Source: Microvirga sp. (GTDB lineage: Bacteria > Pseudomonadota > Alphaproteobacteria > Rhizobiales > Beijerinckiaceae). From it: DNA of 64,000 nt. Positions 60,715 to 63,549 of the stretch are shown here, one piece after another. Below the pieces are notes generated by a model. The model did no database searches, was not told the origin of the DNA, and saw only the letters and a list, made by a program, of their open reading frames with translations. Position 1 is the stretch's first letter, and each line of letters begins with the position of its first letter. A program made the translations under genes and the position numbers. The stretch spans positions 1-64,000 of the forward strand of contig JAQSWQ010000027.1 in the NCBI GenBank assembly GCA_029266525.1. The letters run 5' to 3'.

Positions 60715-61470
60715 TCATCGGCCTGGCGCAGGGTCAGGATCGGAACTCTCCTCGATCGTCGCGACCAGCCGTTCAAAGGTCAACGAGCGTTGGAGTTGGA
60801 AATCGACCTGCGCCGGCGGCAGGCCGGCCTCAAGGCGCGCGCGAATTTCGCGCAACATGGCTATGGCATCGGCCTGCTTCTGGTCGATTCGATGCTGGAG
60901 CAGCCGCGCAATGAGTTCCTGGCGCCAAGCCGGGCCGCCGTCATCCATCTTCCCGACAATGTTCTCGTAGGTGCGCTGCGGGAAAAAGGTCTGCTTCGCG
61001 ATCCCGACGAGTTGTCGGCGGACCGCTGCGCTGATCGCGCCATGCGCCTCGGCGTTAGCCAGCGTCGCCCGGATGTTCACCATGGCCTCGGACAGCGCGG
61101 CGTAGCCGACCTCGCCGGGGCCATGCATCACGGCTACTTCGTCATCGTCCTCGAGCGCGCCCGCGGCATAGGCTTGGTAGATCGCGCCGATCCCTTCCAT
61201 GCCGAACAGAGCAAGTTCCGCAGCGCGCAAGGCTCCGATGCTGGCGCTGCCGAAAACCCGGATTCCCCTGCTCAGGGCCCAGAGGATCTCCTTATGCCAG
61301 ACGGCCGGAACGTTCGCGAAGTAGCCGTCAATGACGCCGATGATAGAAGGGCTGCGCTGCGCGGCTCGATATACGTCGCCTTGTGCCGCCGGCGGGAGAT
61401 AGACCGCATCCAGCTGCTTCTGCGCGATCTCGACCGGCAGGGTCGGGCCTACAAAGACGATTGCACTCAA
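60715..61470 (-). CDS. tfuA: TfuA-like protein, YcaO partner
   Basis: 251 residues. Family blocks: SAIVFVGPTLP, YLPPAAQGDVYRAA (24-37), IGVIDGYFANVPAVWHKEIL (44-63), RVFGSASIGALRAAELALFG (71-90), EDDDEVAVMHGPGEVGYAAL (107-126) and SEAMVNIRATL. TfuA proteins act with YcaO in converting a backbone amide to a thioamide, as in thioglycine of methyl-CoM reductase; the name comes from trifolitoxin production. The start is a TTG at 61470 whose last two bases overlap the ycaO stop (TTGA), a sign of tight coupling. No sulfur-carrier gene is nearby. Base composition looks lower in GC than the housekeeping blocks. Confidence 0.9.
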   Translation of the reverse strand: MSAIVFVGPTLPVEIAQKQLDAVYLPPAAQGDVYRAAQRSPSIIGVIDGYFANVPAVWHKEILWALSRGIRVFGSASIGALRAAELALFGMEGIGAIYQAYAAGALEDDDEVAVMHGPGEVGYAALSEAMVNIRATLANAEAHGAISAAVRRQLVGIAKQTFFPQRTYENIVGKMDDGGPAWRQELIARLLQHRIDQKQADAIAMLREIRARLEAGLPPAQVDFQLQRSLTFERLVATIEESSDPDPAPGR

Positions 61471-62777
61471 TGCGCTTTCTCTTGCGCTGCAACTCGCACC
61501 GCCCTTTCGAGATTTCGATGCAGCAGGCATCGTGCCGCCCGTTTTCGGGCGAGCGCAACGTCATGGCCGAACACGGCGCATTCGAGCCCGGGAATGACGA
61601 CCCGCACGACCGGGATCTCGAACTCGGGTTTGGTCAGGTCGATTGCGATCACGCTCGTCACGCCTACGGCTCGTAAGCATTCCAGGTAGCGGCGTATGTC
61701 TTCGCGGAAGGTTGCGCAGTCGCCATTCGGGCGGAGCTGCAAATCTCCGCATGCATCGTCAGGTCCGCCCAGCAAGGCGCCGAGCCTGCTGCGGGAGCCG
61801 AGCATGCGGTCGTAAAGAGCCCGGCCCATGTCGTCGCGAGACCCCGCGATGAAAGTCAGGCGGCTCTGAGCCGCTTCCGTGAGCGCGCGGGACAAGGCGA
61901 CGCCGGCGTTGAGGTGGCATCCCGCCCCGACGGCCGCGGACACAGAGCGGACAGGCGTCGCAGCGCGATCATGGATGAGGCACACGTAGACGGGTATGCC
62001 GACATCCGAGGTAACGTCCCATACGTGCACCGCCACTTCCGCATCGCGGTAGGCGGCCAGCAGCTGCTCACAGACGGGATTGCCAATCTTCTCCAGCGCG
62101 AGCTTCGAGGACCTTGGCGCCTCTCCCAAGAGCCGCCAAAGGGCCAGCGCATCCCGCTCGACCACCTCGCATATCGCGTGGCTGATCGCTTCCAGGAGAT
62201 GGTTGCCGGAAGCCAGGCCGGTCGAGGTCATGGTGAAGTAGTTGCTCGAGAGCGCAAGCATATCCGCGGTGTAGTTCGTGTGCACGACGTCGAGCGGGAC
62301 CGACGTTTCGGCCTCTTGCATGAGGTCGTATCCGGCAATCCAGGGCATCGGCGCGTTATGGCTGAAGGCTTCATTCGTGGATCTTGGAGCCAAGGCCACA
62401 TCCATCAGGCGCAGATCGCCGCAAAGCTCGTGATGGCTGCCGATGACGACGGGAAGGTGGATGTGCTCGGCGTGATGCGTCTCGATCGACTCCATGATGC
62501 CGGACACCTTGGCTGCCGCCAGGCTGGCGCCCTTGCCCTGCGCCACCGCAAGCGACCTCGCATTCGGCCGACAGGCCATCACGACGGGAATGCCGATGCG
62601 ATCGAGCCCCGTCACGTTAGCAACTCGCGTAATGCCCATGGCCGGCAGGTGTTCCAAGAGGCGGGCCAGCGTTTCCGCAGGTGGTACGGTTCGGTGCGCG
62701 TCCTTGCGGTGCCGCTTCGGCGCGATCTCCCCGAGCGAGTGCTTGATGCGCTCGACGTGGTCGAACCGTGATCGCAA
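61467..62777 (-). CDS. ycaO: YcaO-domain ATP-dependent peptide-backbone-modifying enzyme
   Basis: 436 residues. YcaO activates backbone amides by phosphorylation with ATP. Segments: MGITRVANVTGLDRIGIPVV (47-66), nucleotide-binding S-x3-E-x2-E in SGIMESIETHHAEH (92-105), SNYFTMTSTGLASGNHLLEA (178-196) and EAISHAICEVVERDALALW. The C-terminal part has EIPVVRVVIPGLE and lacks the PxPxP end of azoline-forming cyclodehydratases; no E1-like or ThiF domain is fused or adjacent. This and the coupled tfuA point to thioamidation. TTG start at 62777 with GGGAGGGAAG in front. A divergent promoter region (62778-62951) separates it from two small peptide genes. Confidence 0.92.
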   Translation of the reverse strand: MRSRFDHVERIKHSLGEIAPKRHRKDAHRTVPPAETLARLLEHLPAMGITRVANVTGLDRIGIPVVMACRPNARSLAVAQGKGASLAAAKVSGIMESIETHHAEHIHLPVVIGSHHELCGDLRLMDVALAPRSTNEAFSHNAPMPWIAGYDLMQEAETSVPLDVVHTNYTADMLALSSNYFTMTSTGLASGNHLLEAISHAICEVVERDALALWRLLGEAPRSSKLALEKIGNPVCEQLLAAYRDAEVAVHVWDVTSDVGIPVYVCLIHDRAATPVRSVSAAVGAGCHLNAGVALSRALTEAAQSRLTFIAGSRDDMGRALYDRMLGSRSRLGALLGGPDDACGDLQLRPNGDCATFREDIRRYLECLRAVGVTSVIAIDLTKPEFEIPVVRVVIPGLECAVFGHDVALARKRAARCLLHRNLERAVRVAAQEKAH

Positions 62778-62951: not shown

Positions 62952-63170
62952 ATGCGCAGCGACGTACAAGTGACCCGTGCAGAGTACGATCGGCTTCTCG
63001 AGAAGCTTCGGCTCTTCGCCAATCAATTGAGCGCAAACGAGCAGCTAGCGTTGGCCCGCATATTGGACAGCGCCCATCTCTCGCGCATAACCGAACGGGA
63101 CGATTTCCCCGGCGAGGCGTGGCAAGAATTCAGTGGGATCATGTCCAACAATGGCGGCGGCAAGTCCTAG
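62952..63170 (+). CDS. Candidate RiPP precursor peptide A
   Basis: 72 residues, not recognised as a named family. Residues 8-40 should form an amphipathic helix (TRAEYDRLLEKLRLFANQLS then ANEQLALARIL). The tail from 51 is DFPGEAWQEFSGIMSNNGGGKS, with no cysteine anywhere. A gap-free alignment with peptide B gives 36 of 72 identical residues; conserved tail residues are DFPGE, WQ, G62, SNN and G69. It is divergent to ycaO-tfuA and only 174 bases from ycaO. A leader-plus-core reading is an inference from size, tandem duplication and neighbour genes. Shine-Dalgarno is weak. Confidence 0.72.
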   Translation: MRSDVQVTRAEYDRLLEKLRLFANQLSANEQLALARILDSAHLSRITERDDFPGEAWQEFSGIMSNNGGGKS

Positions 63171-63330
63171 AGCACCGTACGAGCCGCCCGAAGCCGCTCC
63201 GCAGGCCGCAAAGGGATGGGCAGTTGAAGGCTGCTCACCGAGCTTCAGGCAAGCCGGCTATGCAACTCTCGATGCCGGCACGCCGACTTCATCGCGTGTC
63301 GGCTCGAAACTTTCGGACGGAGGCTGACCT

Positions 63331-63549
63331 ATGGCTGGCGACCCCCAAGCGACACGTGCCGATTTTGACAGCCTTGTGAAGAAGCTTTGCTCATTCGCGG
63401 AGACGCTGAGTGCCAGCGAGCAGCTCGCGTTCGCCCAGATGCTAGGTGGTGCCGATCTCCCGCAGGCGGACAGCCGGAATGATTTTCCGGGCGAGTCATG
63501 GCAGCACCTGATGGGAATGGTATCCAACAACGCCGGCACGGTAAAGTAG
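63331..63549 (+). CDS. Candidate RiPP precursor peptide B
   Basis: 72 residues, paralogue of peptide A, 160 bases downstream on the same strand. GGAGG lies nine bases before ATG 63331. Helical leader-like part TRADFDSLVKKLCSFAETLS and ASEQLAFAQML, then a variable linker (residues 44-48), then NDFPGESWQHLMGMVSNNAG and four more residues. One cysteine (residue 20), outside the tail. The retained length and pattern, with change concentrated in the linker and last residues, indicate selection on two related peptides. Function unknown. Confidence 0.74.
   Translation: MAGDPQATRADFDSLVKKLCSFAETLSASEQLAFAQMLGGADLPQADSRNDFPGESWQHLMGMVSNNAGTVK

Follow-up and report, generated by a model that had tools for sequence, protein, structure and literature searches.

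According to the report on thiovarsolin biosynthesis, a precursor peptide, a YcaO enzyme and its partner TfuA form the minimal sufficient set for thiovarsolin B; the thioamide is placed at a Pro-Arg bond, and the same report describes no need for a cluster-encoded peptidase beyond varAYTO (PMC6511847). A preprint on StdA describes a YcaO-TfuA pair that thioamidates an Asn within the sequence SNKEWQE (PMC13174530). In archaea, ycaO-tfuA is reported to be required for the thioglycine of McrA (PMC5589413), and the YcaO of E. coli, which works free of TfuA, is described as thioamidating Met82 of uL16, for which folded uL16 is needed (PMC13063428). A 2021 survey counted more than 1000 TfuA-type clusters in Proteobacteria, and by its account the thioamidated RiPPs then known from the pair were all from Actinobacteria (PMC8120280).

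The window (the whole 64,000 nt stretch of Microvirga sp. DNA that was analysed) carries a YcaO gene and a TfuA gene beside two short ORFs, peptides A and B (Table 1). This locus appears to be a compact, orphan, putative thioamidated-peptide cluster of a known kind. Taken as a whole, the best explanation makes the duplicated peptides ribosomal substrates of a divergently transcribed YcaO-TfuA pair, with a proposed docking hairpin and a C-terminal thioamide, to which we assign a probability of roughly 55%. The link between the peptides and the enzymes is suggested by gene proximity: A and B lie in tandem, 160 nt apart, and their start codons are 174 and 553 nt from that of YcaO, as short ORFs near such an enzyme would be. 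The original prediction concerned the stretch from nt 63102, where the codon for residue 51 (D) of A begins, to nt 63549, where the stop codon of B ends. It took both peptides for leader-core substrates with a modified tail; substrates of YcaO-TfuA is indeed their best reading, but conservation does not mark out the tail.

Table 1. Positions and supporting evidence for the genes and peptide tails of the cluster in the window.
Feature	Position (nt)	Strand	Evidence
TfuA, 251 aa if begun at TTG 61470	60715-61470	-	PF07812, 160 bits (cut-off 30)
YcaO, 436 aa, begun at a TTG that GGAGG precedes by 5 nt	61467-62777	-	PF02624, 270.6 bits (cut-off 25.7); 174 nt separate it from the divergently transcribed A
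Peptide A, 72 aa, putative precursor/substrate	62952-63170	+	ORF; coding-type divergence from its paralogue B
Tail of A, residues 51-72, DFPGEAWQEFSGIMSNNGGGKS; predicted helix 55-68	63102-63167	+	Sequence; AF2 model of A
Peptide B, 72 aa, putative precursor/substrate	63331-63549	+	ORF; paralogue of A
Tail of B, residues 51-72, DFPGESWQHLMGMVSNNAGTVK; predicted helix 55-68	63481-63546	+	Sequence; AF2 model of B

Both components expected of a YcaO-TfuA cluster, a YcaO domain and a TfuA protein encoded beside it, were recognised by Pfam, and the two genes overlap. The TTG at 61470, which overlaps the YcaO stop codon as TTGA, is the most likely start of TfuA. Among curated models the pair scores best on those for McrA thioglycine, in both cases below the equivalog cut-off: YcaO reaches 240 bits on TIGR03266 (cut-off 365) and TfuA 219 bits on NF033432 (cut-off 235), the TfuA profile scores having been computed on a longer frame from 61530. 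The solved structure nearest to YcaO by sequence is MJ1094 (E 4.3e-35). An azole-type system is not indicated, as YcaO scores 143 bits on the SagD model (TIGR03604, cut-off 219) and neither tail contains a Cys; the one at position 20 of B lies in the first helix. The original prediction had excluded azole formation from Cys, which fits the preference of this YcaO for the McrA-thioglycine model over SagD (240 versus 143 bits). The reverse holds for the other YcaO of this genome (G000:C14), with 252 bits on SagD (cut-off 219) and 59.5 bits on the thioglycine model. That second enzyme (L037 1078-2679), over the SagD cut-off and beside an S15 peptidase-like gene, likely belongs to a separate RiPP locus.

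In a gap-free alignment A and B share 36 of 72 residues (BLASTP E 4e-26), and their alignment score of 179 compares with a maximum of 31 among 2000 shuffles. Nucleotide identity at codon positions 1, 2 and 3 is 0.64, 0.75 and 0.43, so that third positions are the most diverged, and the NG86 estimates are dN 0.41 and dS 1.61 (the latter close to saturation). The two are real paralogues with coding-type divergence, and no other small ORF adjoining YcaO-TfuA has a paralogue of this sort. The claim that they are coding rests on this divergence because the codon-usage score of both frames is not above background; the A and B frames rank first of six, with the antisense frame close behind. A GGAGG sequence is found 7 nt ahead of the ATG of B, and no good Shine-Dalgarno sequence occurs within 22 nt upstream of A. 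Searches of Pfam, NCBIfam, PHROGs and PADLOC gave neither peptide a significant match, the best sub-threshold matches being that of B to Laminin_G_3 (E 0.025, below the cut-off) and PHROGs matches at E 0.099-0.27. The cluster returned zero matches when scanned for Rfam families, promoters and terminators.

A and B are an orphan pair, with no convincing homologue in the searches made. Within the same family, only one of 298 genomes gave a match at E 0.001, namely that of the window itself, where A and B were accompanied by three partial matches (E 0.006-0.88) that were dismissed, leaving no further convincing copy. A class-level profile search at E 0.01 matched 5 of 385 genomes, the own genome and four weak cases. 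One of the four (L149) is a 36-codon frame antisense within a 481 aa ORF, and the others (L148, L150 and L151) cover 29-36 residues, each within an open frame of 312-654 codons; all were attributed to chance. No relative was found in viral contigs (searched with B, A and the DFPGExWQ pattern), in phages (A as sole query) or in plasmids by tblastn (B at E 1, A at E 5). The regions around 83 further YcaO/TfuA loci were likewise free of A/B relatives within the stretches examined, some of which end at contig ends; they comprise 60 of 73 other TfuA places in the order, 19 of 20 other YcaO places in the class (G821:C9 excluded) and 4 plasmid loci. The best non-self profile matches there (E 0.029 and 0.32) were short and partial, and were rejected. 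A contig pattern scan of genomes with two patterns from the A/B alignment gave 15 pattern matches and zero relatives. Because such scans respond to near-exact stretches, they may overlook distant homologues; with this YcaO as query the same method returned 136 pattern matches, none of them a relative, though relatives of about 50% identity exist on plasmids, which shows that it is very strict. In the literature searched, which did not extend to supplementary tables, no description of A or B was found.

An orphan precursor pair is not remarkable, given the many singleton families and precursor candidates in the 2021 survey, which reports 445 singletons among its 613 cluster families, as well as 2,972 precursor candidates that are singletons (PMC8120280). 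Small ORFs conserved within a clade also recur beside YcaO, being present in 7 of 18 other YcaO-TfuA loci as two families, so clade-specific precursor candidates are usual. The first family (L119 5676-5873, L120 5437-5778 and L123 9821-10057) precedes YcaO and combines RGADGRL with a C-terminal ITPG[AVL]; it is a candidate precursor, two of its three members overlap a longer open frame, and the L119 copy has no NCBIfam match. The second is a candidate precursor family of conserved 74-91 aa ORFs directly before YcaO (L040 7252-7527, L126 8829-9053, L128 10458-10694 and L130 10219-10443), of which the L126 copy has no NCBIfam match. In the remaining 11 loci no small ORF was common to at least three, a ribbon-helix-helix type family excepted. 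Related ORFs of this type lie alongside five Azospirillaceae-type loci (L119 5234-5521 and 8911-9291; L120, L123, L131 and L132). They are annotated as ribbon-helix-helix in L119, flank the pair on both sides in L119 and L120, and gave no NCBIfam match in the two copies tested; they may be regulators or substrates. No convincing SNKEWQE-type motif was seen in the TfuA loci examined.

The ribbon-helix-helix type ORFs beside the five Azospirillaceae-type pairs indicate that neighbours need not be substrates, and what joins A and B to the enzymes is proximity only. The two peptides could thus be unrelated to the pair, for example as small regulators, with YcaO-TfuA targeting another protein. We consider this unlikely: none of the four databases gave A or B a significant match that hints at a regulator, and tandem precursors beside RiPP enzymes are common.

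The proteins encoded around the cluster include, among those scanned, a TctC receptor, a VTT-domain protein, Aldedh, DPBB_1 (RlpA-like), an RraA-like fragment and a solute-binding protein. Pfam scans of the four proteins of the cluster and nine of its neighbours (one a fragment) recognised no exporter, peptidase or PqqD-type RRE; nor did they reveal an MNIO or a carbamoyltransferase of the kind that accompanies StdA. A relative of the same genus (G036) has Aldedh and the RlpA-like gene in syntenic arrangement. At that place nothing in its DNA matches the YcaO-TfuA-peptide block, and genes located farther downstream find their matches elsewhere. That relative has a different YcaO-TfuA pair (L163 8003-9944, G036:C1; TfuA 49%, YcaO 35%) beside a 1059-codon ORF, and the 18 kb examined around it contain no A/B relative. 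In a YcaO tree of 83 rows (L139, lacking a TfuA match, was left out) the enzyme of the window sits alone on a terminal branch (0.67). By path its nearest neighbours are Azospirillum-type sequences, and its top identity is 51%; the tree does not resolve its sister. Acquisition of the block by transfer is plausible.

The pattern DFPGE-x-WQ-x3-G-x2-SNN-x-G was confirmed in both peptides, as were the Gly residues, at position 69 in both and at 68-70 in A. The tails finish as SNNGGGKS in A and SNNAGTVK in B, and they have G54, G62 and G69 in common. The original prediction placed conservation mainly in the helix and the last 20 residues. The counts do not bear this out: 20 of 36 residues are identical in 8-43 and 13 of 24 in 49-72, and the last 20 are average (10/20). 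Identity in 49-72 does not differ from that in residues 1-48 (23/48; one-sided Fisher p 0.40), and the best windows of 5, 8, 10, 20 and 21 residues are no more conserved than shuffled columns (p 0.60-0.98). With BLOSUM weighting the tail came out slightly ahead, though not significantly (p 0.064), and its last 14 residues leaned the opposite way (p 0.175). Inside the tail, positions 49-58 hold 8 of 10 identical residues, and 59-72, which includes SNN and the Gly, 5 of 14, below average. Judged from these two sequences, then, the tail does not appear to be specially conserved. The variable linker at 44-48 has some support (0/5 identical, p 0.027, for a region chosen post hoc), and these five residues are the sole footing of the proposed split into leader (1-45) and core (50-72), which is unproven.

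The AF2 models of A and B, built from two sequences each and of modest confidence (mean pLDDT 72, pTM 0.52-0.53), agree on a helical hairpin (9-24/25 and 28-40) followed by a brief turn of helix and then, at 55-68, a helix that ends at SNN. What the original prediction called the helix is modelled as a two-helix hairpin, and the tail is predicted to be helical too, so it is not predicted as a loose core. A fold search with the B model gave 14 matches, the best at a meaningless E of 4.2.

In the best explanation, that of duplicated substrates, the N-terminal hairpin (about 9-40) would dock the peptide, YcaO, using ATP, would activate one backbone carbonyl in the C-terminal segment, and TfuA would deliver sulfide, giving a product with a backbone thioamide. 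The likeliest single site would be one of the two asparagines, N66 or N67, in the SNN that caps the tail helix, with Gly69 second. The closest precedent for any residue common to the two tails is that of the S-N in SNN, from StdA, an analogy of two letters and no more, by which the SNN asparagines would be at least as good candidates as Gly. As precursor, YcaO and TfuA suffice for thiovarsolin B (PMC6511847), a cluster of four genes can be enough. Against the best explanation, SNN differs from SNK, the rest of SNKEWQE is missing, and 59-72 is conserved below average.

The thioglycine that the original prediction considered possible in the tail is not favoured, since YcaO-TfuA pairs are also reported to modify Pro-Arg in thiovarsolins (PMC6511847) and Asn in StdA (PMC13174530). 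With Gly, Pro-Arg, Asn and Met all described as targets of YcaO-TfuA or YcaO, the absence of Cys does not point to Gly. The particular arrangement of leader 1-45, core 50-72 and thioglycine at Gly69, after SNN, is quite unlikely in our estimation. It could draw on the three Gly common to the two tails, on the McrA-glycine model being the top NCBIfam match of YcaO, and on the reported need for ycaO-tfuA in archaeal McrA thioglycine formation (PMC5589413). However, nothing singles out G69 among the three, the tail is not specially conserved, and the bacterial examples in the reports cited modify Pro-Arg or Asn (PMC6511847, PMC13174530).

Equally doubtful is a reading of A and B as small helical proteins that fold and are thioamidated whole without cleavage, like McrA and uL16; it shares its enzyme step with the best explanation. 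The predicted helices (9-24/25, 28-40 and 55-68, the last capped by SNN) would suit it, as would the lack of a recognised peptidase or exporter in the neighbouring proteins scanned and the folded uL16 reportedly required by E. coli YcaO (PMC13063428). The modest, two-sequence AF2 models and the missing fold match for B count against it, and thiovarsolins, as reported, likewise need no cluster peptidase beyond varAYTO (PMC6511847). A new class of folded, uncleaved mini-proteins, in which a YcaO-TfuA thioamide on an Asn of the SNN cap stiffens the helix end and does not serve secreted-peptide maturation, is very improbable.

Read as duplicated substrates of the pair, A and B make this four-gene cluster a convenient system, with two natural variants of one putative substrate. 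With two paralogues in one locus, the part that docks and the residue that is modified could be mapped by comparing them. Should the Asn assignment hold, this would be a second, independent case of Asn thioamidation by a YcaO-TfuA pair within the literature searched.

The nearest enzymes found are those of Azospirillum loci, such as that on plasmid AZO_p4 of A. lipoferum 4B (L119), with identities of 49-52% for YcaO and 49-51% for TfuA. As in the window, the A. lipoferum TfuA is short (250 aa) and its gene overlaps that of YcaO by 4 nt, whereas these loci have ribbon-helix-helix ORFs and their own unrelated small ORF ending in ITPG[AVL], and no A/B relative was found in them. The archaeal McrA thioglycine pair (MJ1094 type) provides the best curated models and the nearest solved YcaO structure by sequence, but it acts on McrA and the pair of the window scores below its equivalog cut-offs. 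StdA/StdGH of Streptomyces thermodiastaticus is also a YcaO-TfuA system with an S-N motif near the C-terminus, the Asn being thioamidated; as the preprint describes it, that cluster has a conserved SNKEWQE, an MNIO and a carbamoyltransferase, while A and B have SNNxG in place of a C-terminal SNKEWQE and neither enzyme was recognised in the proteins scanned (PMC13174530). In the var cluster of Streptomyces varsoviensis, VarA is described as having a repeated core with its thioamide at Pro-Arg, whereas A and B contain neither repeats nor APR/GPR, but the gene content, varAYT(O), is likewise precursor, YcaO and TfuA (PMC6511847).
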